Source: Marinobacter salinus (GTDB lineage: Bacteria > Pseudomonadota > Gammaproteobacteria > Pseudomonadales > Oleiphilaceae). Taken from it: a DNA stretch of 64,000 bases. The notes beneath the pieces are model-generated. The model worked only from the letters and a program-made list of their open reading frames with translations, was not told the origin of the DNA and made no database searches. The DNA is taken from assembly GCF_001854125.1 (NCBI RefSeq), contig NZ_CP017715.1, positions 1,240,001 through 1,304,000 of the forward strand, read 5' to 3'. The position numbers were made by a program, and so were the translations under genes. Of the stretch, positions 2,528 to 46,869 are shown piece after piece; position 1 is the first letter of the stretch; the number at the start of each line of letters is the position of its first letter.

Positions 2528-2584
2528 ACTGCTGCTTCCTTTCTATTGCGGTGTTTCCCGCAACGCACTAACAGCGAAAATACG

Positions 2585-5583: not shown

Positions 5584-5632
5584 GGGTTCCAATAATTCAG
5601 GTAGAGTTGAAAGTTACAATTCGGTTTGCTGT

Positions 5633-9879: not shown

Positions 9880-10656
9880 ATGAGACAGATCGTCTTGATC
9901 ACTTTTCCTACTGGAAAGATTTTTATTGCGGAGGGCGACAGTGAGACCCCTTGTTGCTATAGCCGTAGTGGTTTAGATCTGGAGTCTTTGAACGACGAAT
10001 TTGCGCATCTGCCGGAAGACGACAGAAAAGAATACATCATCAGGCAACAAATCCTTTGGCAGTCAGAACACTGTTCTTATACCGAGTTCTTGACGAAAAA
10101 AAGGGAGTTTGTTCGACACTACGAAGCAGACAACCCGAGCGTAGGGTACAACTATCCCTCTGAGGTCGAACATTCTCAAGTGCAGAGGACCCTGCAGTCC
10201 ATTCTTCAACAAGCCCAATCAACCCAAGAGCAGTCGACTCAAGGTACCAACGACATAACCAATGAAGTGCCCGGAGTCGTTCTTACATCTTCGCCAGTAT
10301 TGATTGATGTCATCAGAGGCGGTCTAACCGGGACGTGGCTCAGTAAGCTGTTAAGAGTCGCAAACCTCAAGCCGGTTTTAGCGGCGGCCCTGGGTATCGA
10401 GTCATCTGGGGACCTAGCAGCCTTATCCGAGGTTAAAGCGCTATCACAAGCGCAGTCAGAAGCGATACTCGATGCAGTAGTGGTGTATATGCGCGCTGTT
10501 GAGGTGTGGGAGTCCGCTGAAGCCGCTTCCAACTGGTTCAACGCTGAAGTATCGGCTCTGGCAGGGCAAAGCCCCATGGCGATCATGGATACCTTTGAGG
10601 GGCGCAAATGGGTACGAGAGGTATTGGAAAAGATCGAAACCGGTACTTTTTCATGA
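9880..10656 (+). CDS. GIY-YIG-like N-terminus fused to Xre/MbcA/ParS-type antitoxin domain
   Basis: About 258 residues. The N-terminal 85 residues (IVLITFPTGKIFIAEGD ... YIIRQQILWQSE ... NPSVGYNYP) resemble a small GIY-YIG nuclease family with a conserved IRxxILWxSE and a terminal GYN, but the YIG half is eroded (CCYSRSG). A Gln/Ser-rich linker follows. The last 120 residues look like the Xre-like HTH plus the toxin-binding domain of MbcA/ParS antitoxins: LSQAQSEAILDA, then a Trp-rich helix, AGQSPMAIMDT and the terminal VLEKIETGTFS. Such antitoxins normally pair with a RES-domain toxin, and none is adjacent. The gene converges on tniQ, overlapping its stop by six bases. The C-terminal call is fairly secure; the N-terminal call is tentative. 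Confidence 0.6.
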   Translation: MRQIVLITFPTGKIFIAEGDSETPCCYSRSGLDLESLNDEFAHLPEDDRKEYIIRQQILWQSEHCSYTEFLTKKREFVRHYEADNPSVGYNYPSEVEHSQVQRTLQSILQQAQSTQEQSTQGTNDITNEVPGVVLTSSPVLIDVIRGGLTGTWLSKLLRVANLKPVLAAALGIESSGDLAALSEVKALSQAQSEAILDAVVVYMRAVEVWESAEAASNWFNAEVSALAGQSPMAIMDTFEGRKWVREVLEKIETGTFS

Positions 10657-12237
10657 GAGCCCATAGCGGTTTAAGTATAAAAACGCAGCATCCGCCCCTA
10701 AAGGCTCGTCCCAAACAGGGCGACGATAGCCTCCAGCGACATTCTGGGCGTGGAATGCATTGCCAATTCTTAAAACCAGTGATCTGAAGGCCTCGTAGTT
10801 CCAGAGCTGATCGTCTCCGGGATCCCATTCGATGTCACACAGGTTGTCGACCTCGGTTCGGTCAACGAAATGTGTTTTGGTGGGCAGACACCCAGAATGT
10901 TCCAACAAACTACAGTCTATTTCGGACAACGGATCAATATCTGGCCAGCAGTAACCGAAGGATGAAGGGGAGGTCGGGCCATAGGCGTATAGATGCGAAG
11001 CATAATCTCTGGGTCTGTATCGGGCCTTGTCAGACCATTGGTCGACATGCCCCGCATGGAGGCATCGCAGCCGTTCACACACATGCCCTGAATACGTTAA
11101 GAAATCCAAAAAAAGGCACAGCAAACTTCTCTCAAAAATAATACGTTCTATATGATGGCTGGGCCTATCGCCAGCGCCACTCGTATCAAAAGAAACCAGT
11201 CGGTCGGGTGTTTGAGGCCATTCCTGAAACCCAAAAATTTCAGTGAAATAATAATAGAAAGGTGTCGTCGAATTTAAAGGATCATAATACCTCTGCGTAA
11301 CGGCAGCCCACCAGAGCGTGAACGCTAAACAGACTCGACACGGTTGCATGTCCGATTCCCAAAAAGCCACGTAACGCGCAAATCGATACTCCCTAATTCG
11401 CAAAACGTGCTTATTCAGTTCGCCACCGCCCAAAAATTCAACAATCTGTTGAGCACATTTCATGATTGAGCAGATTGCATGTCGGCTGGGGGAGCGAGTG
11501 GCTGGCCGTCTGCGGCCATTTTGGGCTTTTACAATTTTGGGGTTGAACGTCCTAGTCTGCACTTTCGAATAGGCCAGGCTAATGCCGGTTGTCCTGACCC
11601 CCAGTTCTTGAAGCGAATCCTTGGTAAACGATTGTGAAAAGAACAGTTGGAAGTCGGGAAAGAACTTCGAGTCTACGGAAATTGGACCAAACGAATCGTA
11701 ACGACACCGGGAACGATAGTAGAAGTACTCGGTATAGTCGATGAAGGGGAGCCGACGGCTGCTTAAACAATTAATTGGCGTAGACTCTTCCAGAAACTGA
11801 TGGAGGCTGCTGAGTGGCGTAATTGCACGGGAAGACAAGCCTCGGCCCAGGAGATTCTCCCACTTGGGTATCCCGCAGAGTTCGCAATTACGGGAACTCA
11901 TATTGGCTACAGAGGGCCAGCTTTGTTCGCATCGTGGGCATCGCGCAACCAACTCACAACCGTGTATTGGGCATCGTGCCAACCAGCAATAATCATAAAG
12001 ACGGCAATGAAAAAGATGTTGCGCACAAAGAGGGCAATGCTTGCTGGGAGCGTAGCGGCTGAATTCGGCAGGACTCAAAGTGTCACCTTGGGATTCGGCA
12101 TACGTGAGATACGACATTTGAACAGTACTTGTAGCCCAACCCGGATTAGCAATGACCCATTGCCGAGCCGTCGCATAATGGCTTTGGTGCTGCATCGCCA
12201 TCCATTGGCCTGTATTGAAACCATTGAAAAGAGCCAC
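10651..12237 (-). CDS. tniQ: TniQ/TnsD-family target-site selection protein
   Basis: A 528-residue protein from a GTG start. An N-terminal zinc-binding TniQ segment is visible: HCPLCAQHLFHCRLYDYCWL, then CPIHGCELVARCPRCEQSW, then NCELCG, matching the family pattern of paired CxxC units around a CPxH. In Tn7 the TnsD/TniQ subunit binds the attachment site and recruits the TnsC ATPase. The C-terminal 350 residues are poorly conserved by eye and may include the DNA-target-binding part. The gene follows tnsC by 12 bases. Its length is closer to TnsD (about 500) than to the short TniQ of CRISPR-associated elements, which suggests a fixed att site rather than guide-RNA targeting. Confidence 0.8.
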   Translation of the reverse strand: MALFNGFNTGQWMAMQHQSHYATARQWVIANPGWATSTVQMSYLTYAESQGDTLSPAEFSRYAPSKHCPLCAQHLFHCRLYDYCWLARCPIHGCELVARCPRCEQSWPSVANMSSRNCELCGIPKWENLLGRGLSSRAITPLSSLHQFLEESTPINCLSSRRLPFIDYTEYFYYRSRCRYDSFGPISVDSKFFPDFQLFFSQSFTKDSLQELGVRTTGISLAYSKVQTRTFNPKIVKAQNGRRRPATRSPSRHAICSIMKCAQQIVEFLGGGELNKHVLRIREYRFARYVAFWESDMQPCRVCLAFTLWWAAVTQRYYDPLNSTTPFYYYFTEIFGFQEWPQTPDRLVSFDTSGAGDRPSHHIERIIFERSLLCLFLDFLTYSGHVCERLRCLHAGHVDQWSDKARYRPRDYASHLYAYGPTSPSSFGYCWPDIDPLSEIDCSLLEHSGCLPTKTHFVDRTEVDNLCDIEWDPGDDQLWNYEAFRSLVLRIGNAFHAQNVAGGYRRPVWDEPLGADAAFLYLNRYGLS

Positions 12238-12249
12238 GGTACCGATCCG

Positions 12250-13233
12250 TTACCGACTTTTATCAATTGTCGGCCGCGTGACTAATGAGGGCACGAGACC
12301 GGAAAGACGAATGGCTTCGTCAATCATCGCTTCACCCAGTTCGTCCACGCCGTAACGGGGCAAGAAGTCGGATAGTAAAGTGTTGGTGGTGATTGAAAAG
12401 GATTGCATGCCCCAGGAGCCGATTTTGAAACGTTGTTGATAGCCCCGAAAAACCCGCCAGAATAGGTCGCTCGCAGAGGCCAGTCGAAATCCCGCGGCCG
12501 CAGCCTGCGGTACGAAGGCCTCCACGTAGGTTCGGCCCGACTTTTCGGGATAACGCAGCGCGTCATACTGTGCCAGGCAATACCTGACCTCTTTTGCTGA
12601 CTGGATGCCTGAGAAGGCCCGGCGGTGGAGAAAAAACCGACCATGAATATGGGCGTATTGATCCGAATCCATTCCATCAATCAGACGCCAGGTTTCAGGA
12701 TCATTACCCACAAAGACCGTCATCAGAGTCTTTTGGATGGAGCGGAGACGGTCATACAGTTCAGCGAAGACATTGAACTGGAGGGGCGAGAGTCGCTGGC
12801 ATTCATCGACGACCAAGAGGGCTTGCTCGAGCTCGTGTTCGGCCATGACATCAGAGATCAGATGCAGGTAGCGCACCGCTAATTCATCCGCGGTATGACG
12901 TCCGTTAATATTGAGGCCTGCGGCCCAGCATAGCTGCCGATATACGGATAGCACCGTTTTTTGGTCGCGCAGTGGCATTGTCATGCGTAGAACGGGAATG
13001 GATCGACCATTGCGCGCCCTGAGCCTTGAACAAATCACGTCGAACGAGGTGGTTTTGCCACTTCGCGATGCGCCCGCGATGACCGCGCCTGTTGCGCCCG
13101 TCCAGAGCCACTGAGTCAATTGGTTCTCTAAATCCAGCATGGCAGGTGTGGAGATAACCGGATTTAAAGGGCACAACACTGGGTGATCTCCAGTGGCAAT
13201 TCCTGTTGTCTGAGAGTTCGATTGCTGAGGCAT
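12250..13233 (-). CDS. tnsC: TnsC/TniB-like AAA+ transposition regulator
   Basis: A 327-residue AAA+ ATPase. Walker A is GASRSGKT at residues 54-61; Walker B is LLVVDECQRLS near 138-148. TnsC proteins link target-bound TniQ to the TnsAB transposase and confer target immunity. The start codon overlaps the tnsB stop by one base, and the gene is followed after 12 bases by tniQ. It is shorter than Tn7 TnsC (555 residues) and similar to the TnsC/TniB of Tn5053-like and other Tn7-like elements. Motifs are intact. Confidence 0.85.
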   Translation of the reverse strand: MPQQSNSQTTGIATGDHPVLCPLNPVISTPAMLDLENQLTQWLWTGATGAVIAGASRSGKTTSFDVICSRLRARNGRSIPVLRMTMPLRDQKTVLSVYRQLCWAAGLNINGRHTADELAVRYLHLISDVMAEHELEQALLVVDECQRLSPLQFNVFAELYDRLRSIQKTLMTVFVGNDPETWRLIDGMDSDQYAHIHGRFFLHRRAFSGIQSAKEVRYCLAQYDALRYPEKSGRTYVEAFVPQAAAAGFRLASASDLFWRVFRGYQQRFKIGSWGMQSFSITTNTLLSDFLPRYGVDELGEAMIDEAIRLSGLVPSLVTRPTIDKSR

Positions 13234-15125
13234 CAGGACCGCCCTTTGTCACCAGAGTACCCGATGGGTGACCAGGTAAACTCTTTCCGATTGTCTAAAT
13301 CCCAAGGTGTCTCGACCTCAGATAGGTCCGTCTTGGACTGCTCTCCGAACTGGAGGACTTCTCGCCCACTCCGGGTCATCTCGAGATACAGCCGCAATAA
13401 CTGAGATGCATTGCTGGGAGAGCGGGGTTGGCTCAGCAACTCGGTAAAATACCCAGTTAATGGATCGTTGTGGCTAAAACGGTGGCGCTTTTTCCGTTTA
13501 AAGAGAAGGTTACGAGTGGCCATTGAGTGCGGGAATCTCAGCCAGGAATGGGGGGCAGATAGCGTACCCAGCGAACTGCCTAAACAGGTGTGAGCTGCGA
13601 CGGTACGAATATCACGATGATCGTAGGTGATAACAATCCACTTTTCCTCGGGAGGCAGAGATAAAAGCCCTTTACCCGTATAGCGGCAATAACAGAACTG
13701 AACGTATGGTTCGCGTTGTTCCTTTTGAAGGCGATGGACAGGGACCTTTTTGGTCAGACTGAAAAGAGATCCTGTTTCACCATCATGTTCGATATTGAGG
13801 GGAACCCAAAGGCGAGCGAGATGTTCGCGGAATAAGGCCATGGGGGTCGCACCACCCAAATGCGGTCTTGGGGTGTGATTGCTCGCCGCAAACACCAAAT
13901 GGAGCGCTTCTACCAGACTTTGGAACTTCAGAGCAGGTGGTTGCCGGGCATTTTGATTCGACTCACGGTTTGGATCCGTTGGATACGAACCGGAGGTCGA
14001 GTCCACGCGATGGCCCAAGTGTCGCTCAATGTAGTCAAACGTTCGCTCAACGAGAGCGCGGGTCTTAGGTTGCGCCGGCAAACCGTAACTGATGGTCGCT
14101 CCCAACTGCCGGCACAGTACGTCCATAACGGCTGTGCTGTGATGCATCCATGCGTTATCCAACTGAACGGTACCCACCCCTAGAGCCGGTGTTGGCGTCA
14201 ATTGCGCTGGGAAGGCCGGCATCGACAAAGGTTCGAAACCAGGAGTTGCGATAGTGGGAAGACGTTGTTTTGTTAGGCTCAGCTCCATCAAGTTTAAAAG
14301 GTCTTGCTGATTCGGATGTTGTGTCGGCACGACAAGAAAACCCAGCACACACTCCGTCGCTACGTCCACAGACAGCAGTAAACTGCATCGGCTTAAACGG
14401 AGATCGATCAATTGGTCATTAAAATCAATGACCAACCCTGTGTGTAAATCAAGGATGTGCTCGTCGATTTGAATGGCGGACAATGCGCGCTTACTGCAGT
14501 CGGTCTTGGTATGTGCCGTAAAACGTTTGCGCCCTCTCGAGTGTGCCTGAAGCACCTCTCGTTGTTGATTCAGGTATCTGCGCGCCGACTCGTAACCTTG
14601 CGACTCAGACGTATACGGATAAAGATCGGCGGGCCAGTGGGTCTCTGCAAGCAAGTGCAGAAACTGTTGATGAAATCGCTGTGGCGTCAGGCGCTGGGAT
14701 CTTGGCTTGCGGCGCACAGCCGCCAAAATAGCCTCATCAAGTTGCCTCTTTACTTCTGGCAACTGCTCCAACAATGCTTGAAAAGCAAACGGGGCGCCTT
14801 TGGGGTGTGCAAGGGTAGGCAATTCAGCAGCCCTGGAAGCCTTGATCAATCGCCGGTGTGGAATCAGGCCAACTGACATCGAAGCTGGATCTTCAAGTTC
14901 TCCACCCAGGCAGCGTTCCATTAGCTGACTGATACGTCCTGAACTTAGACCGAGCTCTGCGCTAACATCCTTCACCGTATTGCCTTCTAAAATTCGCGCC
15001 ACAACACGCCTGTTTCGGAGATAGAGTGCGCGGTGTTCCTTCGGTAATGCGCCAAGCTCAATCACGGGCCACTGTTGAATGTCCGCGAGTCCGGGTTCTT
15101 TGATAAGTCGTTCGCGCCAGCTCAT
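13233..15125 (-). CDS. tnsB: TnsB/TniA-like DDE transposase
   Basis: A 630-residue transposase of the retroviral-integrase/Mu fold. An N-terminal helix-turn-helix is seen at about 40-72 (TVKDVSAELGLSSGRISQLM). The catalytic triad reads D221 (AIQIDEH), D323 (TVQLDNAW) and E360 (TRALVERTFDY). The C-terminal beta-barrel/Mu-C region follows. TnsB binds the transposon ends and joins the 3' ends to target DNA. Its ATG overlaps the tnsA stop by four bases. Full length, with all catalytic residues present. Confidence 0.9.
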   Translation of the reverse strand: MSWRERLIKEPGLADIQQWPVIELGALPKEHRALYLRNRRVVARILEGNTVKDVSAELGLSSGRISQLMERCLGGELEDPASMSVGLIPHRRLIKASRAAELPTLAHPKGAPFAFQALLEQLPEVKRQLDEAILAAVRRKPRSQRLTPQRFHQQFLHLLAETHWPADLYPYTSESQGYESARRYLNQQREVLQAHSRGRKRFTAHTKTDCSKRALSAIQIDEHILDLHTGLVIDFNDQLIDLRLSRCSLLLSVDVATECVLGFLVVPTQHPNQQDLLNLMELSLTKQRLPTIATPGFEPLSMPAFPAQLTPTPALGVGTVQLDNAWMHHSTAVMDVLCRQLGATISYGLPAQPKTRALVERTFDYIERHLGHRVDSTSGSYPTDPNRESNQNARQPPALKFQSLVEALHLVFAASNHTPRPHLGGATPMALFREHLARLWVPLNIEHDGETGSLFSLTKKVPVHRLQKEQREPYVQFCYCRYTGKGLLSLPPEEKWIVITYDHRDIRTVAAHTCLGSSLGTLSAPHSWLRFPHSMATRNLLFKRKKRHRFSHNDPLTGYFTELLSQPRSPSNASQLLRLYLEMTRSGREVLQFGEQSKTDLSEVETPWDLDNRKEFTWSPIGYSGDKGRS

Positions 15126-15799
15126 GTCCGAGTCAACTCGGTATCGTAATTCAGAGGCTTTTTCGTAAAGTCGCCCTTTAAAAGACCTCGTTGGAGGAGT
15201 CTCAAAGCAGCCACCTCCCGTAAACGTGAAGACGGTCGATCTCCTGGATCAACCAGGTCATCGAATCGCCTTGCCTGCCCGGGCGTAATAAGATCTAAGA
15301 CGTCGTACTCCGCGACTACAGTGTTCATTTCACGGTTTAGATGCAGGACGCGAACAATGTCTAGCCAGGTCTCAGCTTCTATCGCTCGCTCGTAAACCGA
15401 TTCGTTACTGACCACGTCAAATGTCATCCCTTGGATGGCAAAGAATGCCTCCAGTGGGCCACGCAAGACTTCATCAAATTCGCCCCGGGGTTTCAGCTCG
15501 ACAACCCGGCGTTCGGCACCCTCCAGAACGTAACAATCCGGGGTGTAACGCCGTTTACCCACTTGTAAAGTAAACGGCTGAGGAACATAGGAGATTACCT
15601 TTGCGTTGCCCTCGAGCAGACCCGCATACAGCCATTCGGCACGGGAGTGAAATTCAGTCAGGTGAGGGTGCTTGACCATCCACTGGATATAGCTATCTGT
15701 ACCGGTGCGAAGAGCGCGGGTGCTCTGCCGCTGCCGGGGAATTAGCTCACCACTGTGACAACGAATGGTGGGATTTCGTGAGGTGGGCGCTGCAGCCAT
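15122..15799 (-). CDS. tnsA: TnsA-like endonuclease (5'-end cleavage for cut-and-paste transposition)
   Basis: About 225 residues from the ATG at 15799 (a TTG at 15847 would add 16). The TnsA nuclease core is visible as FHSRAEWLYAGLLEG (catalytic Glu), RRYTPDCYV (Asp) and VVELKPRG (ExK), the restriction-like fold that cuts the 5' strands and converts replicative into cut-and-paste transposition. A helical TnsB-interacting C-terminus follows. First gene of the tns operon; its stop overlaps tnsB. Presence of TnsA separates this element from Tn5053-type transposons, which lack it. Confidence 0.85.
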   Translation of the reverse strand: MAAAPTSRNPTIRCHSGELIPRQRQSTRALRTGTDSYIQWMVKHPHLTEFHSRAEWLYAGLLEGNAKVISYVPQPFTLQVGKRRYTPDCYVLEGAERRVVELKPRGEFDEVLRGPLEAFFAIQGMTFDVVSNESVYERAIEAETWLDIVRVLHLNREMNTVVAEYDVLDLITPGQARRFDDLVDPGDRPSSRLREVAALRLLQRGLLKGDFTKKPLNYDTELTRT

Positions 15800-15865
15800 G
15801 GGACACCCCCTGAATGGATCTTTTAAAGATAGATTGGTGGGGTCCAAAAATATAGGTCTTTCAAT

Positions 15866-15890
15866 TTGACGTTTACAGGTAGTTCGTCAA
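15866..15890. repeat. Inverted repeat TTGACG-N13-CGTCAA upstream of tnsA
   Basis: A perfect 6-bp inverted pair lies 67 bases upstream of the tnsA ATG, and a related TTGACA occurs at 15983-15988. The location is where a Tn7-like right end with TnsB-binding sites would be expected, so these may be transposase-binding or regulatory sites. The repeat is short, so this is weak evidence. Confidence 0.3.
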
Positions 15891-16004: not shown

Positions 16005-16745
16005 ATGTCAAAATCCATCACCAGCGCGCGGTCATTTCCGCGCCCGTCTCGAAACAAGCGTTCGCTCGGGTTTCAGGAACGCCCCCTGGTGTCGTTCCCG
16101 ATCACCGAAGTGACCATCGATTGGGACCGGCTCATCGACAAGCGGCCGTTGCTGCTGGAGACCCTCGACACCATGCCGAAGTACCTGCTCAAGCCCGAGG
16201 TACTGACGCTGCTGGAGGCCGAGACCCACCCCATGCACCGGCTGATCCTGGATCTGATGTGGTGCACCGGCGCCCGGGTCTCCGAGGTCCTGGCGATCAC
16301 GCCGGCGAGTTTCCATGACGACGGCTACGACTTCGGGGTGGTCCTCAAGACGCTCAAGCAAGGGGCAGGGCGGCCGAGCAAACGCAGCCTGCAACGCTCG
16401 CCCAAGCGCTTCATCCCGATCCTCGACCGGGACTTCCAGACCCGGATCCAGAGCTACCTGTGGATGGGGAAGTTTCGGAAGGACGAGCGGATCTTTCCGA
16501 TCACGCGCCAGGCGGTCAGTGCCAACATCGACCGGTTAATCGAACAGGTCGGGGGAGAGCCGCCGTTCAAGATCGGATGTCACACCTTTCGGCACAGCTT
16601 TGCGGTGCACCTACTCCTGCATGGGCGACCGCTGAAGTTTGTGAGTCAACTACTCGGGCATCGGAGCGTCGAATCCACAGAGGTGTACACGAATGTGCTA
16701 ACGTTCGACGGAGCGCATTTTTTGGAAGGAGTAGAGTTCCACTGA
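16005..16745 (+). CDS. Tyrosine recombinase/integrase, GC-rich
   Basis: A 246-residue site-specific recombinase with a good GGAGGGG ribosome-binding site six bases before the ATG. Catalytic residues are visible in order: Arg in GARVSEVL, His-x-x-Arg in HTFRHSF, His in LLGHRSVES and the Tyr nucleophile in EVYTNV. The N-terminal 60 residues are short, leaving only a reduced core-binding domain. Base composition differs sharply from the next gene: 65% G+C in 16141-16200 against 43% in 17581-17640 (hand counts), suggesting different origins. It is unrelated in detail to the recombinase family at 20973, 23044 and 32454. Confidence 0.9.
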   Translation: MSKSITSARSFPRPSRNKRSLGFQERPLVSFPITEVTIDWDRLIDKRPLLLETLDTMPKYLLKPEVLTLLEAETHPMHRLILDLMWCTGARVSEVLAITPASFHDDGYDFGVVLKTLKQGAGRPSKRSLQRSPKRFIPILDRDFQTRIQSYLWMGKFRKDERIFPITRQAVSANIDRLIEQVGGEPPFKIGCHTFRHSFAVHLLLHGRPLKFVSQLLGHRSVESTEVYTNVLTFDGAHFLEGVEFH

Positions 16746-16780: not shown

Positions 16781-19700
16781 ATGCCATTTCCGCAACAGCC
16801 TCCGTTGGGAGACGAAACAAGAGAGGCTATCGACTCTCTGAGAGGCTATGCATATCAAATCTATCAATCTGCCCTTGCATGGACGGATATTGATTTTGAC
16901 GAGTTTCTATACCTCGAGGTAGCGGAAGATTATGCCGTAGCTGCTGCTGACGCACTTAAAGCCGTTCAAGTAAAAGACACTACAGGTACCGTCACCATAA
17001 ACACGGATGGCATTATTGCTTCGATTGATAGTTTTGTTGACTTAGTGGAACGGAACCCCGGAATAAATGTTTCTCTCCGTCATCTGACGACCTCAAGGAT
17101 CGGCAAGGAGAAGAAAGCTGAACATCGAGTCGATAATAGGGCAACTCTGGAGTCATGGCGCAGCCTCGCAAAGGTTGGGGATCTATCCGAACTGCGTAAA
17201 GTTCTGAGGAACTCAAAGCTAGCCGACAAAACCAAACGCTATATCGCCGCACTGGACGATACAGGATTACGTGAAAATTTTTTGCAGCGGATCCACTTTG
17301 ACTGCGGCGCTCCTGATTCGCCATTCCTTAAACGGCAAATTGAGTCAAGAATTTTAAAACTTGTACTCGAAAAGGGCGGTCTTGCTTCGGATGTTCCCGA
17401 TTGTATAGCTGGAATTCTCCTCTCGATATTAGAACTATCAGCGGCTAGAAATCCTAGTGAGCGCTTTGTAACCAGAGCTGATTTGGAAGAGCATTTAGAA
17501 AGAGCAACCCAAATCACCTTAAATAGGGCTCAATTTGAATCCCAGAATCTCCGAGTAGCAAAAGCGCTATCAAGGTCATTGTCTAGTGAAAATGGACTTT
17601 CTGGAGAAGCGAATCTAAAACCGAGTCCGGTTTCTGAAGTTCCACTCCCTATTGCTCTAGCAAAGCGTGATAGATATCTAACAAAAATGTTGTCATGCCT
17701 GGAGAGGTCCGGCTCATGCTGGATTACAGGCGCCGCTGGTATGGGGAAAACCGTCGCCGCTCGAATCCTAGCGCATGAAGTAGGCGGAGAGTGGGGTAGT
17801 GTAAATCTTAGAGGGCTTGCTAAAGAACAAACTGCTATTGCTTTGTTGGATTTGGCCAACGCCTTGTCAGAATACGGCCTAAGAGGCTTGATAATCGATG
17901 ACCTTGAACACACCTTAAATCCGTCTGTATTGGATAATCTCAACTATCTGTTTTTTTCTGCCGGACGTTCAGACGTTCTGTTAATAATAACGGCGCCCAA
18001 CGGACCAAGCAGCGATTTCCTATTTGCTTCCGGTCTTCAAGCAGAGATCGCAGTGGTTCTTGCTGAGTTTTCCAGAAAAGATCTAACAGAGATTCTCGAA
18101 AAGTTAGAGGTACCCTCCGCCTCAGAATGGGCAAATTACACTCATCTCATTTCTGGCGGCGGGCATCCGCAGTTGGCCATGGCCTTTATTCAGAGCATGT
18201 GTGCAAGAGGATGGGACTCATCGGAGTTACAGACCTTAAATAGCTTGATTGAAGAGTCCCCAGCAATAGCCGAGGTGAGAAGGCGAACTCGAGAACGACT
18301 TTTGCAAGATCTTCCCGAATCGTCTAGGCGACTAATTGAACGTCTCTCATTAAAGGTTGGCGGATTTCGCAGAGGATTGGTCCTTGATCTCGGCAAAATT
18401 ACTCCGCCCATTCACGACACGGGAATCATCTTTGATAGATTAATCGGCTCTTGGATTGACCAGCATGAAGCTGACAGATTTAGCCTTTCTCCGTTGCTCA
18501 CAAATTATGCAGCAAGTTCACTGACCGACGGTGACAAGAAAGTTATACACAGTGCAATTGCTGAGTCACTCACGAGTGGCAAAACCCTTGATGTCATTGA
18601 CCTAAATGCAGCGTTCTTTTCTGCTCGCAGCAGCAACAACAAATCGGTAGTGGTCAAACTTTGTCTGTTTTTACTAAATTCAGAGGATGAAAAGCTTCAA
18701 AGACTCGCTCCACACCTCTCAGTGTTTACGTTATTGAGAACTGACGTCGAACCATATCCTGGCGATCCGCTCACTAGCCAAATGCTTCGCGGCGTCCAAT
18801 TACTTCTTTTAAGTCAAGAAAATGAACCTCAGAAGCTGGAAAAGGCCCTAAACCGATTTTTCGTTGAAGAAAAGAACGTGCAAAACGTAATGATGCGAAA
18901 GTTTTTAAACCTGGTTATCTATTCAAAGCTTTTGCTACAGCATTCGAACTCAGTACTCGGCTCTAACTTCTTAGACCTCATCCAAGAGCTTCGGCAGATT
19001 TTGCAAAACGAAGACGGTGGTTTACCTGAAGAAGTGATGGAGAGTTTGCAAGAAATTAGCATCAAGGAGGGATGCGACATCACAAGTTTCATGTTTGTAA
19101 ATCAAACACGACAACTATCCCGGATTTTTGATCTCGTTACAGTCTTTGATTTCTTGGATAATAGCTCCATCAAAACTCGATCAAATCTCTTGAAACCCTT
19201 TGATCGGGACGATTTCTCGATAGATACATTGGTTGCAGGCGCTTGGTTGAGTGAACACGAAAACGGCACCATCGAACCGCAAGTTCACAGCGACACCTTT
19301 GCCAGTCTGGAAGCGAAAGCCGCTGGATGGGGCCGCAACGATCTGTCAGTTTGCTGTCGCAAGTATCGTGCAATAATCTTGGATGAATATGGAAATGATA
19401 AAGACAGCGCACTAGCCATATTAAATGAGGGGCTTGCCATTTATGGGCAAACTAACTCGGAGCTGGTCCGTGCCAAGGCCAAAGTTTTGTATCGTTCAGA
19501 GGATCATGAAGGTAGTTTAGCACTGTCGAAAAGGCTTATAGAAAACGACACACAGCTCTCAGAGGTGGAGAAAGCTTTTTTAGGGCGAGACGCCGCGATC
19601 AGTGCAGAAAAGCAAGGCGATTACCAAACCGCGCAGAAATATTATCTATTCGGTAGCGAAGCAGCTGGCAAATCTGGATTGCCGGACATGGAAGCTATGC

Positions 19701-20839
19701 GCATTGGGCTCCTCGCAGACGCAGGTTTAGCGAATTGGCATGATGGCGAAAAGTCGATCTGTTTAAAATACTTCATTGAGGTTTTAAAAGAACTTCCTCA
19801 ACTCGATACAAACATCACAACTCGCACGGCTCACTGTCACGCTGTTAGTCGGCACGTGTTGATGTGGCTGGCCCAGGATGCAGCTGGCGAACCTCATCAG
19901 TTTGGAGAGGGTGAGGAAACAAAAATCTACCCGGGGATCGTTAGCAATCCAGAACCCAATAAAGAGATCTCCGAGCGACGGCTTTTACCAATAGAGTACG
20001 CGTGGTACATGTTGGCGAAGATCGAGAATTATGCGTCGATAAATGTGGGTGTAACGAAAAACCTTGAAGCTTACCTGCCCAATGGGCCTTTGATTCAGGG
20101 CCAGCTTCTTTTAGTTCCTGGCCTTAGACACAACGCCTTGAATCAACTTGATGCGAAGCTGTTTGTTTATGCTTTGCGTTCGACAATCTCATCATTTGCA
20201 CACGCAAATACGCTTCTGCGACAAGCTCGCGAAATCAGTCTGGTCAACTTTGACTATGGCACACTTCCTTTGGCCACTGAACCCGAGCAAAAAGAGCATA
20301 GAAATATTTCCGAGCAGCTACTATTGCTTTACTTTTCTTTTTCACTCATGAATGAAAACGTATCTGCTGTCGAGGAATTGCTCCGAGCGCTCCCTAACTC
20401 AAGTGGTTTCGAGATCCGTTCAGATTTGCTGAATGCGATTCAAGGAAAGGGAGTGGCTTTTGACTATGAGACAAGTTTTGGAAACCTTATCTTTGAACAA
20501 GCTCGGGCCATTCGAGGCTTCCAATCCATTTCTCCTACACAGACTTTTGAAATCTCCTTGAAAACTTTACAGATTGCCAAGCCATATGGGCACTTCCAGC
20601 TCGCCTGCGAGGTTTTGCTGCCTTGGTTAAATCGAAGATGGGCGTTCATTACCCAAAATCAACGTTCTATGCTCACTAAACTAACTCTTCACGAAGGTCT
20701 GATAAGCCAAGAATTAACCAATTCTGAAGCTTCGACGTCCGCAAGGGTAATAAATTTCTTGTCGGCGTTGCTGCCTACACTCGGATTAAATAGCAGCCGT
20801 GAACTCCTGGAAATTCTGACGAGTCTGAGGGCGCAATAA
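16781..20839 (+). CDS. Large nuclease-STAND NTPase protein, Avs-like defence candidate
   Basis: A 1352-residue protein starting 36 bases after the recombinase gene, with GGGAG seven bases before ATG. Residues 18-110 look like a DUF4297/Cap4-type dsDNA nuclease (SLRGYAYQIYQSALAW, then YLEVAEDY and VQVKD, giving E46 and Q63-x-K65). Residues about 290-560 form a P-loop module with Walker A GAAGMGKT (317-324) and Walker B GLIIDDLEH (369-377). The remaining ~750 residues are helical and TPR-like (for example LAILNEGLAIYGQ, AQKYYLFGSEAAGKSG). Nuclease + STAND ATPase + repeat sensor is the architecture of Avs anti-phage proteins, in which the C-terminus recognises phage proteins and triggers the nuclease. 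The family assignment is inference from layout and motifs; it may be a new subgroup. Confidence 0.7.
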   Translation: MPFPQQPPLGDETREAIDSLRGYAYQIYQSALAWTDIDFDEFLYLEVAEDYAVAAADALKAVQVKDTTGTVTINTDGIIASIDSFVDLVERNPGINVSLRHLTTSRIGKEKKAEHRVDNRATLESWRSLAKVGDLSELRKVLRNSKLADKTKRYIAALDDTGLRENFLQRIHFDCGAPDSPFLKRQIESRILKLVLEKGGLASDVPDCIAGILLSILELSAARNPSERFVTRADLEEHLERATQITLNRAQFESQNLRVAKALSRSLSSENGLSGEANLKPSPVSEVPLPIALAKRDRYLTKMLSCLERSGSCWITGAAGMGKTVAARILAHEVGGEWGSVNLRGLAKEQTAIALLDLANALSEYGLRGLIIDDLEHTLNPSVLDNLNYLFFSAGRSDVLLIITAPNGPSSDFLFASGLQAEIAVVLAEFSRKDLTEILEKLEVPSASEWANYTHLISGGGHPQLAMAFIQSMCARGWDSSELQTLNSLIEESPAIAEVRRRTRERLLQDLPESSRRLIERLSLKVGGFRRGLVLDLGKITPPIHDTGIIFDRLIGSWIDQHEADRFSLSPLLTNYAASSLTDGDKKVIHSAIAESLTSGKTLDVIDLNAAFFSARSSNNKSVVVKLCLFLLNSEDEKLQRLAPHLSVFTLLRTDVEPYPGDPLTSQMLRGVQLLLLSQENEPQKLEKALNRFFVEEKNVQNVMMRKFLNLVIYSKLLLQHSNSVLGSNFLDLIQELRQILQNEDGGLPEEVMESLQEISIKEGCDITSFMFVNQTRQLSRIFDLVTVFDFLDNSSIKTRSNLLKPFDRDDFSIDTLVAGAWLSEHENGTIEPQVHSDTFASLEAKAAGWGRNDLSVCCRKYRAIILDEYGNDKDSALAILNEGLAIYGQTNSELVRAKAKVLYRSEDHEGSLALSKRLIENDTQLSEVEKAFLGRDAAISAEKQGDYQTAQKYYLFGSEAAGKSGLPDMEAMRIGLLADAGLANWHDGEKSICLKYFIEVLKELPQLDTNITTRTAHCHAVSRHVLMWLAQDAAGEPHQFGEGEETKIYPGIVSNPEPNKEISERRLLPIEYAWYMLAKIENYASINVGVTKNLEAYLPNGPLIQGQLLLVPGLRHNALNQLDAKLFVYALRSTISSFAHANTLLRQAREISLVNFDYGTLPLATEPEQKEHRNISEQLLLLYFSFSLMNENVSAVEELLRALPNSSGFEIRSDLLNAIQGKGVAFDYETSFGNLIFEQARAIRGFQSISPTQTFEISLKTLQIAKPYGHFQLACEVLLPWLNRRWAFITQNQRSMLTKLTLHEGLISQELTNSEASTSARVINFLSALLPTLGLNSSRELLEILTSLRAQ

Positions 20840-20972: not shown

Positions 20973-21770
20973 TTAGCCGATAAAATCGTATCCGGCATTT
21001 TGCAACGCTTCCTTCAGCGAATCCTCAGGAGGCTCCTCATATATGAGTGTCGTAGATGGCGAAACATGGCCGGCGATTTTCTGAGCGATTTTTACTGACT
21101 TCTTTTGCCCATGAATGATGTTCGTCATCAGGGTCCGACGACCGCTATGGGAGCTGGCTCTTTCGATTCCAGCCCATTGCCGCTGCATGAGGGATAAGTG
21201 TTCCTGTAAGGTGTTAGGGGAGTAGGGGCCTCCTTTTTGAGTAAGGAAGAGAGGATCGCTCTTTTTAACCGCAGGGTTTTTGGCTAGGCGGATTGAGAGG
21301 TATTCCTCTAAGGCAATTCTCAATGCAACATCGTTCATTGGAAGATCTCGCGATCTACCTCGATGTTTTCTAACTTCCGGGTAGAAATCCTCAGGCTTAA
21401 TGTCAGCACCAGCCTTCGCCATAGTCTCAATACGCCGTACAAGTTGGTCGAAATCATGCACGCTGAAGCTTATTCGGCGCCGATGGTACGATGATCTAGA
21501 CCGCTTCAGTGCATCGGCACCCTTTGTGTAAGCTGCAGGCAACGCAAGGATTTCTTTCTGCTTGAACGAACGCTGACCTGAGGTTTCGGGGCCTAATTCT
21601 GCAACGTCCTTGATCTGAAGCAGCGCGATCTCCTGAACTCTCAGTCCGAGCTTGAAGCTGATCTGGACCAGCGCCGTGTTCTTTTCCGGGTATCGATGCT
21701 CTTTGATCTCACGCAAGAGGTGGGCGAACTGTTCAGGCGTGAGCACGCGTGCCTGGCCGGTTTTGCTCAT
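20973..21770 (-). CDS. Tyrosine recombinase, intact copy 1 of a three-copy family
   Basis: A 265-residue recombinase (MSKTGQARVLTPEQF...). Catalytic residues are Arg in LGLRVQEIALL, His/Arg in SHSGRRTLM, His in GHVSPST and Tyr in LIYEEP. The same family occurs at 23044-23763 (5'-truncated) and 32454-33011 (scrambled), all with a leader resembling ATTTTATNTTTRCCC then CTCCTYGCATCC. The 3' flank is not shared with the other copies. This is the only full-length member in the window and so the likeliest source of activity on the 17-bp boundary motifs. It lies downstream of, and convergent with, the STAND gene. Confidence 0.9.
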   Translation of the reverse strand: MSKTGQARVLTPEQFAHLLREIKEHRYPEKNTALVQISFKLGLRVQEIALLQIKDVAELGPETSGQRSFKQKEILALPAAYTKGADALKRSRSSYHRRRISFSVHDFDQLVRRIETMAKAGADIKPEDFYPEVRKHRGRSRDLPMNDVALRIALEEYLSIRLAKNPAVKKSDPLFLTQKGGPYSPNTLQEHLSLMQRQWAGIERASSHSGRRTLMTNIIHGQKKSVKIAQKIAGHVSPSTTLIYEEPPEDSLKEALQNAGYDFIG

Positions 21771-21818
21771 CGGATAAGCTCCTGGTAAGCCGCTAGGATG
21801 CGAGGAGAGGGCAAATAT

Positions 21819-21852
21819 AAAATCCGTAATAATGTTATTTTAACGGATTTTT
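21819..21852. terminator. Hairpin with T-tracts on both strands in the recombinase leader
   Basis: AAAATCCGT and its complement ACGGATTTT enclose an AT-rich loop, followed by a T run on either strand. It sits about 50 bases upstream of the recombinase start. On the minus strand it lies in the gene's leader and could attenuate recombinase expression; on the plus strand it could end transcription arriving from the STAND gene side. Confidence 0.5.
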
Positions 21853-22507: not shown

Positions 22508-22567
22508 TTTAGTAGTTGTTGTGGAGGTTCAGTACTTGTTGTGGAATTCGTTCAGTACTAGTTGTGG
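22508..22567 (+). repeat. Three direct copies of the 17-bp boundary motif (TTGTTGTGG type)
   Basis: Copies start at 22508 (TTTAGTAGTTGTTGTGG), 22528 (TTCAGTACTTGTTGTGG) and 22551 (TTCAGTACTAGTTGTGG). The last runs directly into GTGGTCGTCCAC. Related motifs occur at 22695-22763 (minus), 32263-32394, 35685 and 45090. Arrays of short direct repeats next to a recombination core are typical of integrase arm sites or transposase-binding sites. Confidence 0.8.
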
Positions 22568-22576
22568 TCGTCCACA

Positions 22577-22605
22577 ATACAGCTTATCCTTTGGATCAGC
22601 TGTAT
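22577..22605. other. Strong hairpin inside the 143-bp segment
   Basis: ATACAGCT and ATCC pair with GGAT and AGCTGTAT around a TTT loop, with one mismatch, forming a 29-base stem-loop. No T run follows, so it is not an obvious terminator. It could be a recombination or replication signal. Confidence 0.5.
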
Positions 22606-22649
22606 TTGCTTTAACATAATATACATTATGCGCAGTACGGTATGCTTGG

Positions 22650-22694
22650 AAATAACATTATTACGGATTTTATCTTTACCCTCTCCTCGCATCC
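22650..22694 (+). repeat. Recombinase leader without its gene
   Basis: This stretch matches, in inverted orientation, the leader of the intact recombinase (21797-21842): AACATTATTACGGATTTTAT, then a pyrimidine-rich CCCTCTCCTCGCATCC. Here the sequence then runs straight into GTGGACGACCAC instead of a recombinase start codon, marking a recombination junction. Confidence 0.7.
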
Positions 22695-22763
22695 GTGGAC
22701 GACCACAGAAAGTGCTAAAGAATAGCCACAGAAAGTACGAAATTTTCACAGGAAGTACTAAAT
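22695..22763 (-). repeat. Three inverted copies of the 17-bp boundary motif (TTTCTGTGG type)
   Basis: Read on the minus strand, the copies are TTTAGTACTTCCTGTGA, TTTCGTACTTTCTGTGG and TTTAGCACTTTCTGTGG, the last continuing into TCGTCCAC. They mirror the three plus-strand copies at 22508-22567 across the 143-bp segment. Confidence 0.8.
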
Positions 22764-22904
22764 TCGTCGCCCACCTTTCTATATTCCTGATTCTGAACAC
22801 TTTTCGGTTTTTTTCTCGAATAGCGCCTTTCGGGCAATCAGTGCCTTGGATTTTGGCGGTTAATTTCGATTATGGAATGGCGTCAGCTCTGACTGGCCGA
22901 CAAA

Positions 22905-22942
22905 AACTAGTGCTAAATTTCCACAACAAGTGCTGCACCCCT
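22905..22942 (-). repeat. Two further degenerate boundary motifs on the minus strand
   Basis: On the minus strand this reads GCAGCACTTGTTGTGG followed by TTTAGCACTAG, resembling the TTGTTGTGG-type repeats at 22508-22567. With those, it brackets about 440 bp of repeat-rich, gene-free DNA (22266-23043). Confidence 0.5.
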
Positions 22943-23043
22943 TAGGTTATTGATTTAAAGCACATTAGACATTCACCACAGTTTGGCTATAAACGGAGTC
23001 TGGTACTTACCGTCTTCTAAGCTGTGACAGAGCCACCGGGAGC

Positions 23044-23763
23044 TACCCGGAAAAGAACACAGCGCTGGTTCAGATCAGCTTCAAGCTCGGACTGCGAGTC
23101 CAGGAAATCGCGCTGCTCCAGATCAAAGACGTCGCCGAACTCGGCCCTGAAAGCTCTGGTCAGCGCTCTTTCAAACTCAAAGAAATCCTCCCGCTGCCTG
23201 CGGCTTACACTAAAGGTGCCGATGCGTTGAAGCGATCCAAGTCCACGTACCAGCGGCGTCGGATCAGTTTTAGTGTTCACGATTTCCACCAGCTTGTTCA
23301 GCGAATTGAAACCATGGCTAAGGCCGGCGCCGAGATCAAACCAGAGGATTTTTATCCTGAGGTCAAAAAACATCGTGGTAAATCGCGGGATCTTCCAATG
23401 AATGACGTTGCGCTGAGAACGGCCATAGAAAAACACCTTGCGATCCGCCTGGCAGCGCACCCCTCGGTGAAAAGGACGGATCCTCTATTCCTGACTCAGA
23501 AAGGAGGCCCCTATTCTCCCAACACTCTCCAGGAACACTTTGCTCTCATGCAGAGGCATTGGGCAGGCATTGAGCGAGCCAGCTCCCACAGTGGCCGGCG
23601 GACTTTAATGACAAATATTATTCATGAACAAAAGAAGTCAGTTAAAGTCGCGCAAAAAATCGCTGGTCATGTGTCACCGTCAACAACGCTCATTTACGAA
23701 GAACCTCCCGAGGAGTCACTGAAGGAAGCGTTGCGGGATGCAGGGTACAAATATGTTGGTTAG
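23044..23763 (+). pseudogene. Tyrosine recombinase copy 2, 5'-truncated
   Basis: Homology to the intact recombinase begins abruptly at YPEKNTALVQISFK, so about the first 26 residues (MSKTGQAR onward) are absent and unrelated sequence lies upstream. From there the frame is open and similar to the C-terminus (DAGYKYVG). All catalytic residues persist (LRVQEIALL, HSGRRT, GHVSPST, LIYEEP). A TTG within the frame at 23227 could give a shorter product. A DNA-binding lobe shortened this way is probably inactive, but the intact catalytic core means activity cannot be excluded. Its 3' flank is shared with copy 3. Confidence 0.8.
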
Positions 23764-28809: not shown

Positions 28810-29005
28810 CGAGGCAATGGTTGTTCATTGTCACCCTGACCCCGTTTTATATCCACTCAGAGTTGTAATAATTCGGCTCTAATTGTGCTCCGGGATAGAC
28901 GCGCTAAACACTGGGAATCTAAAGCGCCTTCAAAGATCTACTTGTTGAGACTGCCATTACGCCCAGCCTTAAACGGGCGCAAAATTGAGGCCGCGAATAT
29001 CCGCT

Positions 29006-29257
29006 TGGACTTACCCCGGTCCACTAGACACTCCTAGCCTATGATTGGACTTACCCCGGTCCACTAGACACTCCTAGCCTATGATTAGAGCATAGGAGGA
29101 ACTGTCATGAGCAGCCAACGTTATCCCCCGGAATTCAAAGACGAAGCGGTCCGACAAGTGCTGGAGCGGGGCTATACCGTCGCCGAAGTGTCGCAACGAC
29201 TGGGAGTCTCCCCTCACAGCCCCTACAAATGGGTTAAAACGGTGAAGCCCATTGTTA
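29006..29257 (+). mobile_element. IS3-family remnant: duplicated left end plus truncated orfA
   Basis: The terminal sequence TGGACTTACCCCGGTCCACT begins a 40-bp unit that is tandemly duplicated exactly (29006-29045 and 29046-29085). An orfA start follows at 29107 (MSSQRYPPEFKDEAVRQVLE ... VSQRLGVSPHSPYKWVK), the helix-turn-helix of IS3 transposases. Homology stops after about 50 residues, where it runs into the end of the gene at 29255-29689, so the remainder of orfA and all of orfB are lost. Confidence 0.85.
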
Positions 29258-32159: not shown

Positions 32160-32279
32160 GTTCGCTTTTGTTTAATTGCGTCCCCTGCTTACAAGGCTTG
32201 TTGTTTGCCTCCAATCTTTCCGTTCCAGCGAGACTATTCCGAACTCCGAGTCGGACGCCGAATTTAGCACTTTGTGTGG
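32160..32279 (+). repeat. 120-bp direct repeat, copy A (ends in a boundary motif)
   Basis: Similar base for base to 35582-35701: both begin GTTCGCTTTTGTTTAAT, share GTTCCAGCGAGACTATTCCG and end in GAATTTAGCACTTTGTGTGG. The repeated block thus carries its own copy of the 17-bp motif at its right edge. It lies immediately before recombinase copy 3, and copy B lies after the LysR/EamA pair. Confidence 0.85.
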
Positions 32280-32394
32280 AAGCTGGAATGAGCGCCCTAT
32301 TCTCGAATCTGCTTTAAGTCTGTTTAGCACTTTGTGTGGATTTTGGAGGTTAAGTCGCTGATATTTGATAGCGGAAGTTTAGTACTTTGTGTGG
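32263..32394 (+). repeat. Three spaced boundary motifs (TTTGTGTGG type)
   Basis: TTTAGCACTTTGTGTGG at 32263 and 32323, and TTTAGTACTTTGTGTGG at 32378. The third continues into TCGTCC and then directly into the recombinase leader (AATTTTATGTTTGCCCCC). Spacing is 55-60 bp, longer than the 20-23 bp at 22508. An opposing GCGACCAC follows the leader near 32431. Confidence 0.8.
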
Positions 32395-32453
32395 TCGTCC
32401 AATTTTATGTTTGCCCCCTCCTTGCATCCGAGCGACCACCTGGAGCCTCCCTG

Positions 32454-33011
32454 ATGAGCAAAACCGGCCAGGCACGCGATCTCCTGAACTCGCAGTCCGA
32501 GCTTGAAGCTGATCTGAACGAGTGCCGTATTCTTTTCCGGGTAGCGATGCTCTTTGATCACGAGCAAGAGGTGGGCGAACTCTGCCCTGAAAGTTCTGGT
32601 TCTGGTCAGCGCTCTTTCAAACTTAAGGAAATCTTAGCGTTGCCTGCGGCTTACACTAAGGGTGCCGATGCGTTGAAGCGATCCAAATCCACGTACCAGC
32701 GGCGTCGAATCAGTTTTAGTGTTCACGATTTCCACCAGCTTGTTCAGCGAATTGACACCATGGCCAAGGCCGGCGCCCAGGAACACTTCGCTCTCATGCA
32801 GAGGCATTGGGCAGGTATTGAGCGAGCCAGCTCCCACAGTGGCCGGCGGACTTTAATGACGAATATCATTCATGAACAAAAGAAGTCAGTTAAAGTCGCG
32901 CAAAAAATCGCTGGCCATGTGTCACCGTCAACAACGCTTATTTACGAAGAACCTCCCGAGGAGTCACTGAAGGAAGCGTTGCAGGATGCCGGATACAAAT
33001 ATGTTGGTTAG
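32454..33011 (+). pseudogene. Tyrosine recombinase copy 3, with internal inversion and deletion
   Basis: Starts like the intact gene (MSKTGQAR), but bases about 32480-32582 match the reverse complement of the intact gene's residues for VLTPEQF to EIALLQ, so this segment is inverted. Normal order resumes at CPESSGSGQRSFK. A second change removes about 68 residues between AKAGA and QEHFALMQ in frame. The C-terminal HSGRRT, GHVSPST and LIYEEP remain, but the catalytic Arg region is lost. The frame is open for 185 codons yet cannot encode a working recombinase. Confidence 0.85.
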
Positions 33012-35581: not shown

Positions 35582-35708
35582 GTTCGCTTTTGTTTAATGG
35601 CGTCCCCTGCTAACAAGGCCCGTTGCTCGCCTCCAATTTCGCGGTTCCAGCGAGACTATTCCGAACTGGGAGTCGGACGACGAATTTAGCACTTTGTGTG
35701 GTCGTCCA
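35582..35708 (+). repeat. 120-bp direct repeat copy B with boundary motif and TCGTCCA core
   Basis: Copy B of the 32160-32279 block, ending in TTTAGCACTTTGTGTGG (35685-35701) and then TCGTCCATTG. The 27 bases from 35685 match those at 45090 with two differences. This motif marks the left edge of the catabolic island. The 415-base gap 35398-35812 contains no gene. Confidence 0.85.
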
Positions 35709-44971: not shown

Positions 44972-45089
44972 ACGGATCATCGAAGATATTTACATGTGCA
45001 TGCTTTGGTGCGAAAACTACCAACTGAGAATCAAGCACGCGTTTGCCTACAAAAACCATTGCCTCCTATTCATTAATCTGGCCGGCGAA

Positions 45090-45113
45090 TTTAGTACTTT
45101 CTGTGGTCGTCCA
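45090..45113 (+). repeat. Boundary motif at the right edge of the catabolic island
   Basis: TTTAGTACTTTCTGTGG followed by TCGTCCA and then TTG. It matches 35685-35711 in 25 of 27 bases and in the same orientation. Backbone genes begin just to its right, at the end of selO. Confidence 0.8.
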
Positions 45114-45153: not shown

Positions 45154-46869
45154 TCACGACGAGCAGCTATAGTGCGACGATCCACCAACTTCAAACAACT
45201 CCATCGGCTTCGGCCTGTAGTATTTCTTCTCTACGTCCTCCGATTGCTCGGCGTATGGCTGCGTCATCACGTCTTGCAGTTCTCGCAGTAAAGCGTAATT
45301 ACCCGCTGCCGCTTGCTGATAAGCAGGCACAACAAACCACTCCCTCAAACTGAACTTCGGATTGATAAGCTTCATCTGGCTGGAAAGCTCCTCACGCGTG
45401 CCTGGTCGAGTGAGCGAATTCCAATTTGTGAGCCACGCTGACCAGCGCTTGTCTATGCCTTCGGGGTCTGCAGCATAGGCCGGGCCTTTGTAGAAGCTTT
45501 TCTTGAGTGGCTCAATGTCATCTGGCAACGACGAGAGTTCCCGGAAGAAAATGGTGTAATCAACAGGCGTTTGCATCATCAGCGTTGCCAGCTCGCGGAA
45601 CAAGGCCGCGTCAAAAGCGTCAAGTCCAAGCTTTGCAGCCCACATCTTCTCCATTTGCGCTTGCATCACCTTTGGGAAATCACTTTGAATCTCCTCCAGC
45701 TGCCGCAGACAGTCTGGATGCCCTGCCAACAAAGTCCGAACCGCCGAACAAAACGAATGGAAGTTGCGTTCGGCCGCTGCTGGTTGGTTGAGGAACGCGA
45801 AGTGATGCCCGCCACCCGTCCATGGTTGGTACTGCGGATCAAACACATCGCAGAATCCGAATGGTCCATAGTCGAGCGTGAAGCCGCCCGCCGCACAGTT
45901 GTCGCTGTTGAAGTTACCCTGGCAGTAGCCAACGCGGATCCAGTTCGCAACAAGCGACGTCAGTCGACAGCGGAACTCACGCGCAAGCAACACGACTTTT
46001 TCGGCAGTGGCCAGTGACTGGTCGATAACGTCACCGTACTCACGGTCGATCAGGTGCAACACGATCTTCTCAAGCTCCTCCATCGCCTGCGGGCGTTCCT
46101 GCTTGCGGGCACGACGACTAAAGAGCTCGAGCTGCCCTACCCGTATGAACGACGGTGCAACACGCGTCGAGATGGCAACTGGCTCGTATATGAGCACATC
46201 TGGATCTATTGAGCGTGAGCCCTCCGAATACCATGGACGCCTGACTTTCTCGGTTTTCGACACGTACAGACTCAAAGACCTTGACGTGGGCACACCGAGG
46301 GCGTGCATGTGCTCCTGTGCCAGGAACTCCCGAACACTGGACCGCAGAACGGCCCGGCCGTCCGCGCCGCGGCAGTAGGGTGTGCGCCCTGCCCCTTTCA
46401 ACTGCATTTCCCAGCGCTGCCCGTTGATGACTGCCTCGAACACCGAAATCGCGCGGCCGTCGCCGTAGCCATTGCCGGTCTGGAACGGGCACTGCTGGTA
46501 GAATTCGGTGCCGTAGATAGAAAGTGCGTAGCCACACGCCCACCCGACGTTGCGCAGAGGCTCCGGAACACGCGACAAGTCTCCGGAGAACATGCGGACG
46601 AAGTCACTGGATTGCGCCATGCTGTCGGCGAAACCCAGTTCGTGAAAAAGATCTTTCCCATGCGCGACGTATTCGGGGTTTTCGAGTGGCGTGGGACTGA
46701 CCGGAACATAGTGGCCCGAGAATACCTGTCGTGGCGAGTGGTCAGCTCCGTTTGCTTTCCCCTCGGGATCGCAGTTGAGCGTGTCCATGAGTGAATAGTC
46801 TGCCAACGTTGCGAGATCGTCGAGGGTCACGACCGTTGTAGGCGTTTCCCGGTGACGTCGCGGTATCAT
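45154..46869 (-). CDS. selO: Protein adenylyltransferase SelO
   Basis: A 571-residue pseudokinase-fold enzyme with AAGGAG upstream of the ATG. Landmark segments: [60 protein letters not shown], then [20 protein letters not shown]. SelO transfers AMP to Ser/Thr/Tyr of redox and metabolic proteins. The extreme C-terminus is YSCSS; Cys occupies the position held by selenocysteine in animal SelO. Somewhat longer than E. coli YdiU (478) because of an extended N-terminus and middle. Last gene before the mosaic region. Confidence 0.92.

Follow-up and report, generated by a model that had tools for sequence, protein, structure and literature searches.

The DNA between 22508 and 22945 of the window, by which we mean the whole 64-kb stretch analysed, raises the question of what brought two sets of the same repeats face to face in mirror image. 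At this locus GTGGTCGTCCAC (22564-22575) and its exact reverse complement (22695-22706) enclose 143 bp, outside which lie, on each side, three inward-facing copies of an 18-bp motif (consensus about TTTAGYACTTTNTGTGGA) starting at +22508, +22528 and +22551 and at -22702, -22725 and -22745, the inner copy of each triplet continuing into CGTCCA. An earlier sequence-only reading had described this layout of triplets and 12-bp inverted repeats around 143 bp, and the motif count confirmed it: AGTACTTGTTGTGGA with ≤3 mismatches had 9 matches in the window, compared with a mean of 1.24 in 100 dinucleotide shuffles, none of which gave 9. The hairpin and the orphan recombinase leader that had been placed inside the 143 bp are also present, the leader matching the one (21796-21840) ahead of the gene for IntB, a second tyrosine recombinase. 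We discarded the hairpin as a conserved part of the structure, since it is local to the window's genome, and no equally good hairpin was found in the other 113 genomes of our survey (114 XerD-side flanks, of which only the window's reached the score used). A further pair of motifs, described at 22905-22942, does exist but lies slightly to the left (22900-22937), and we read it as a relic R end. That description did not include the 28-bp dif which lies between the two ends.

We take ACTGCGCATAATGTATATTATGTTAAAG at this place to be the chromosomal dif from its likeness to E. coli dif, and XerC/XerD recombination there is presumed from the same likeness. The dif site is where joined chromosome copies get separated before cell division, and most bacterial chromosomes must keep it working. 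In a survey of the window's genus (≤2 mismatches), exactly one dif was present in 114 of 124 genomes and zero in 10, and in the window's genome it is single and intact despite both flanking ends. It lies 2.02 Mb from dnaA on a 4.12-Mb chromosome, and thus at the terminus, opposite the origin, which disposes of the replication origin that had been considered for this locus. Our answer to the question is that dif here very probably has a Tn7-like R end on each side, left by a transposon family that steps a fixed distance from dif or from dif-bound XerC/XerD.

Table 1. Features of the dif locus and of the elements around it, in positions of the window.
Feature	Position	Strand	Remarks
tniQ/tnsD-like protein	10651..12237	-	position and Cys/His cluster; without own Pfam match
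tnsC-like AAA ATPase	12250..13233	-	Pfam AAA_22, 2.8e-10
tnsB-like DDE transposase	13233..15125	-	D221/D254, D323 and E360 invariant in 10/10 aligned sequences
tnsA-like nuclease	15122..15847	-	Pfam PF08722, E=0.00094, below cut-off
25-bp inverted repeat TTGACG..CGTCAA	15866..15890		between IntA and tnsA in genus elements
IntA, XerD-like tyrosine recombinase	16005..16745	+	divergent from tnsA; catalytic residues present
IntB, second tyrosine recombinase	20973..21770	-	just inside R end
R end of element 1	22508..22574	+	XerD side of dif; repeat spacing 20 and 23 bp; terminus at 22574 (48 bp to dif centre)
Hairpin	22576-22606		arms of 14, 13 paired; between element 1 end and dif
Chromosomal dif (XerC/XerD site)	22609..22636	-	sole genome match with ≤3 mismatches
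Orphan IntB leader	22650-22694	+	between dif and second R end; 96% identical to 21796-21840
Second R end	22696..22762	-	XerC side of dif; mirrored triplet; terminus at 22696 (73 bp to dif centre)
Further pair, two degenerate repeats	22894..22937	-	22900-22917 (weak, 14.5 bits), 22920-22937 (22.6 bits)
IntB fragment	23041..23763	+	without first 25 residues; inside second R end
L-type end	32263..32401	+	repeat spacing 60 and 55 bp; terminus at 32401
Part of IntB leader, with broken copy of IntB	32438..33011	+	outside L-type end
Relic single-repeat end, L orientation	35685..35708	+	
Outermost relic single-repeat end, L orientation	45090..45113	+	
Resident gene	45154..46869	-	homologue directly beside dif in relatives

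Each triplet plus GTGGTCGTCCA is, by its sequence, an R end of a Tn7-like transposon. The ends of this family are asymmetric, the repeats being spaced by 20/23 bp in R ends and by 55/60 bp in L ends, and the terminus starts TGGACGACCAC. Two intact relatives of about 33 kb (in G066 and G037) carry one triplet at each end, as the sequence-only reading had proposed to check, spaced 55/60 bp at the L end and 20/23 bp at the R end and bordered by 5-bp duplications; by this spacing, 22508-22574 and 22696-22762 are both R ends. The suggestion of two element ends fused head to head was therefore right in that the ends face each other and a recombination site is involved, but both are R ends, which are unfused and flank dif. 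The far end of element 1 (contig 1235325-1262574) lies to the left of the window, where a triplet with 55- and 60-bp spacing starts at contig position 1235325.

Target duplications of 5 bp were found in G066 (ATTAG), G037 (ATCCT) and G115 (TCGAG), and thus in only three of the 11 genomes where an L-orientation end was within reach. Old R ends adjoin new L ends in G037 and G066 and, in degenerate form, in G027, and such R-against-L junctions are expected from repeated insertion at one spot. In the window, the flank of the L-type end at 32401, read towards dif, is AAAAT, identical to the five bases at -49 to -45 beside the window's dif, where insertion usually falls. A 1.6-kb stretch with R and L-orientation ends and the TCGAG duplication, apparently a non-autonomous derivative, occupies -1656 to -49 on the XerC side in G115 (L159).

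The flanks of dif were oriented in 114 genomes of the genus, and the matrix used to score repeats was derived solely from the genome of the window. On the XerC side, 33/114 genomes had repeats of ≥16 bits inside 130 bp of dif (the stretch on this side was <2 kb in 33 of the 114 genomes and only 74 bp in G034), and in 29 of these 33 R-end genomes the outermost repeat ended 53-58 bp from the dif centre, with the terminus at about 47-52 bp; the remaining outermost repeats were at 61 bp in two genomes, at 73 in G028 and at 79 in the window, whose second R end is thus about 24 bp beyond the usual position. On the XerD side, where three of the 114 genomes had R ends, the outermost repeat was at 54 bp in the window, 55 bp in G049 and 56 bp in G124 (degenerate, 13.3 bits), a step that mirrors that of the XerC side. 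Only the window's genome among the 114 had R ends on both sides, and one weak repeat at the right place was seen in three more genomes (G059, G065 and G129). No repeat within 130 bp of dif faced away from it in any of the 114 genomes, and one shuffle of the same 1.86 Mb, both strands taken together, gave 5 hits. Conservation of the spacer was 0.24 bit per column in the 29 canonical genomes, compared with 1.93 for dif, and 0.17 compared with 1.92 in the 76 genomes without R ends. A constant step without spacer conservation, mirrored on the other side, suggests that dif, or what binds dif, is measured. In G132, a partial tnsB and an L-type end lie on the XerC side of dif and no R end at dif was found, and the genome of G078, in which tns genes and an L end are present, contains no match to dif (≤2 mismatches). 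A scan of viral contigs for the exact R end beside dif gave 0 hits.

These distances bear on how else the locus might have arisen. The mirror might reflect inversion or fusion of the ends of one element by recombination at dif, rather than two insertions, and the ends are indeed alike (71% complementary over 82 nt), with flanks that match for neither of the two dif-adjacent elements of the window (element 1 TCCGG vs CAATA; XerC side CGGAT vs AAAAT). However, the repeats of the two R ends are of different types (TTGTTGTGG vs TTTCTGTGG), which also led us to drop a simple inverted duplication, L-type ends are present on both outer sides, and single XerD-side ends occur in G049 and G124, all of which makes this origin improbable. 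It is very improbable that the attachment site is the core-like site of IntB, or another dif-adjacent sequence, and not dif itself: although core-like CCGTAATAATGTTA was found beside dif in 10/114 genomes, it was present in only 6 of the 33 R-end genomes, and the spacer has little of the conservation seen in dif.

A shade harder to credit is that elements insert widely and that the dif-proximal ones survive since the terminus is a tolerant hotspot. Other mobile debris does lie near dif or the element ends (IntB copies and an apparent IS transposase fragment), but a hotspot gives no fixed step, and the distance distribution largely contradicts it, as 29/33 outermost repeats fall in a 6-bp range, the XerD-side ends stand at the same step, and the repeats near dif do not face away from it. 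The presence of IntB inside the R end, within about 2.1 kb, in at least 17 of the 33 R-end genomes (some stretches being short) would suit the end of a tyrosine-recombinase element, or a replication or transfer origin, with recombinase on the triplets, which is the binder that the earlier reading had expected. Yet like repeats bound the far (L) end, tns genes lie inside, three relatives have 5-bp duplications, and dnaA is at the other side of the chromosome, and we give this account next to no credence, the least of the four. The triplets instead form the ends of a Tn7-like element whose transposase is of TnsB type, so that a tyrosine recombinase is not the protein expected to bind them.

The genes of element 1 agree with that assignment. 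A divergent tnsABC-tniQ set of adjacent same-strand genes occupies 10651-15847, and the E, D and E of a PD-(D/E)xK-like motif were kept in 18/18 TnsA sequences. A fold search with TnsB, for which the model was moderate (pLDDT 62) and the TM-scores of the matches only 0.2-0.3, returned a V-K CAST transpososome chain (4.5e-14), Tn7 TnsB (1.3e-12) and the Mu transpososome (MuA; 1.3e-11). TniQ was assigned mainly by position and cysteines (its AlphaFold model has a pLDDT of 32); one of seven relatives scanned matched PF06527 TniQ at 0.0068, below the cut-off, and the C/H columns were invariant in 9. Among 163 genomes of the family, 11 had a TnsB match, of which 8 (including the window's) were full-length, one partial (G132) and two weak (G033 and G068), and because full-length TnsB is present in just 8/163, the majority of the R ends beside dif may belong to elements that are non-autonomous or have lost tns. 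Plasmids yielded 61 records of TnsB relatives, 45 of them covering ≥80% of the query, all with <60% identity (23-26% for the 20 listed), and viral contigs yielded 1 remote relative.

In a wider search, a TnsB profile matched 17/390 genomes in the order, of which 13 (two with weak matches) belong to other genera, and 6/369 in the class, 5 of them in addition to the window's own. We examined the dif neighbourhood in 10 of these genomes (11 loci; dif with ≤6 mismatches; some stretches short), and dif was within the stretch in four of them (G529, G688, G305 and G292). By eye, the R ends of G529 and G688 lie about 51 bp from dif on the XerC side and a degenerate end of G305 about 50 bp from dif on the XerD side, so that three genomes, each of a different other genus, show the same layout. 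The stretches of G223 (a 20-kb contig), G226, G284, G349, G346 and G447, some of them short, did not contain dif, and with six of ten other-genus relatives lacking dif in the stretch, the TnsB clade as a whole need not target dif. G292 (L227-L228) has a remote set resembling tnsABC, whose tnsC-like gene comes to within about 360 bp of a perfect dif, with no recognisable end there; this is perhaps an independent dif-associated lineage.

The mechanism that we propose for a fixed step from dif would begin with TnsB binding the end repeats and with TnsA and TnsB excising the element. TniQ, alone or via XerC/XerD or the Xer-like IntA, would mark dif, and TnsC would be directed to insert the element one fixed step from dif, R end first. 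Since dif is nearly two-fold symmetric, it could be read from either face; the XerC side is the one used far more often, and in the window both sides have been used. Sequence adjacent to dif was altered further, probably by IntB, the leader of which now stands between the second R end and dif. We put forward only tentatively, as a guess that we think is more likely wrong than right, the more specific proposal that the family senses the XerC/XerD-dif complex with IntA and TniQ as target selector, docking on either face of dif. If true, a cell could come to have its dif enclosed between two R ends, an arrangement that may couple transposition, or the expression of cargo, to the segregation of the chromosome.

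IntA kept R and K in 15/15 sequences, and H-x-x-R, H and Y in all 13 that reach that far. It was divergent from tnsA, with 35 to 942 bp between the open frames, in 13/13 genomes or loci with both, namely eight of the window's genus and G688, G305, G223, G529 and L044 (L043, whose stretch ends 166 bp beyond tnsA, was left out of this tally). Full-length IntA was not found in G226, G284, G349, G346, G447 or G292, and in G223 and L044 (12.4 kb) IntA was present and dif absent from the stretch. In this small set, the co-occurrence of IntA tracks the location at dif, which phylogeny alone could also explain. The inverted repeat at 15866-15890 is a candidate IntA or resolution site. The idea of IntA as a dif mimic was rejected, as the intergenic palindrome is unlike dif by eye.

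IntB, whose leader holds a core-like palindrome at about 21820-21848, may have its own relation to dif. In G136 (L175), an IntB open frame with a similar leader adjoins dif with no R end between, which suggests that IntB acts independently to integrate or exchange DNA next to dif, and the orphan leader of the window is probably a remnant of such an IntB gene. This remnant would explain why the second R end stands too far out, and the AAAAT flank at 32401 fits such a history. An IntB frame or IntB-like leader adjoining dif, together with core-like CCGTAATAATGTTA and with no R end found between, was also observed in G051 (L104) and G058 (L111), as in G136.

Tn7 targets include names such as glmS. 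The elements at dif resemble Tn7 and Tn7-like transposons with TnsD/TniQ homing (Benler 2021, PMC8649781; Faure 2023, PMC10293859) in their tnsABC and putative tniQ/tnsD-like genes, end-repeat arrays and asymmetric L and R ends, and further in 5-bp duplications (in three relatives), a fixed target distance, one end facing the target, an intact target and defence cargo. They are unlike the known Tn7-like elements in that the target is the XerCD dif site, on either side, that protein divergence is great enough to leave TnsA and TniQ below the Pfam cut-offs, and that a conserved Xer-like recombinase adjoins tnsA though tnsA is present. The Tn5053/Tn402 transposons, reportedly named 'res site hunters' by Minakhina in 1999, insert near a plasmid or transposon res bound by serine resolvase. 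They require the cognate recombinase on the target, lack TnsA and are replicative. They share with the elements described here the transposon superfamily and insertion close to a site-specific recombination site, whereas the elements here go to dif on the chromosome and encode a TnsA-like nuclease whose catalytic-type residues are conserved. Integrative mobile elements exploiting Xer (IMEX), CTX phage among them, integrate within dif through strand exchange by XerCD. They too use dif as an integration address, but our family inserts about 49 bp from dif, which stays intact, and three relatives show 5-bp duplications. A Tn7-like element coupled to a tyrosine-recombinase-like protein is also described in PMC10293859, where TnsF of Tn6022, tyrosine-recombinase-like, without a catalytic site and with zinc fingers, targets comM. 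Unlike TnsF, IntA is short and keeps its catalytic residues, and its role in targeting is putative.

The kind of element is known, and we found no report, in the PMC full text searched, of dif as a Tn7-like target or address used from both faces; the whole word 'dif' occurs 0 times in PMC10293859. By using dif as an address without breaking it, a transposon gains a widespread, single-copy and safe site, which carries 'res hunting' beyond the resolution sites of plasmids to that of the chromosome itself and raises the question of whether a Tn7-type selector reads dif DNA, or host XerC/XerD on dif. For targeted insertion, dif would be a natural landing pad.

The surroundings of dif in relatives indicate how far the window has grown. 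In at least 6/113 genomes, the XerC side of dif has a homologue of the resident gene at a distance of 33-92 bp from the centre of dif; DNA 3.7 kb to the left of element 1 has a match 183-184 bp from dif, on the XerD side, in at least three genomes (G025, G043 and G131), and other parts of the left flank were 72-85 bp from dif in G042, G112, G069 and G070, among the matches listed. Judged by these neighbours, one side of dif has probably gained about 22 kb and the opposite side as much as about 31 kb. The relic ends at 22894, 35708 and 45113 probably mark older arrivals, as repeated insertion at one spot would push older elements outwards and leave such ends behind. The single repeats at 35675-35708 and 45080-45113 have TCGTC-type motifs on both sides and look like L ends in which an outer repeat has recombined with an inner one and the array has collapsed.

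The cargo of element 1 is of defence type (1253-9157 and 16781-20839) and comprises a type I restriction set (hsdR, hsdM and hsdS), a nuclease that falls in PDC-S26, a candidate defence class, and a protein of 1352 aa whose N-terminus is LmuA-like and whose matches to STAND/AAA are weak and below the cut-off. Elsewhere in the window, a perfect tandem duplication of 40 bp was observed at 29005-29084.
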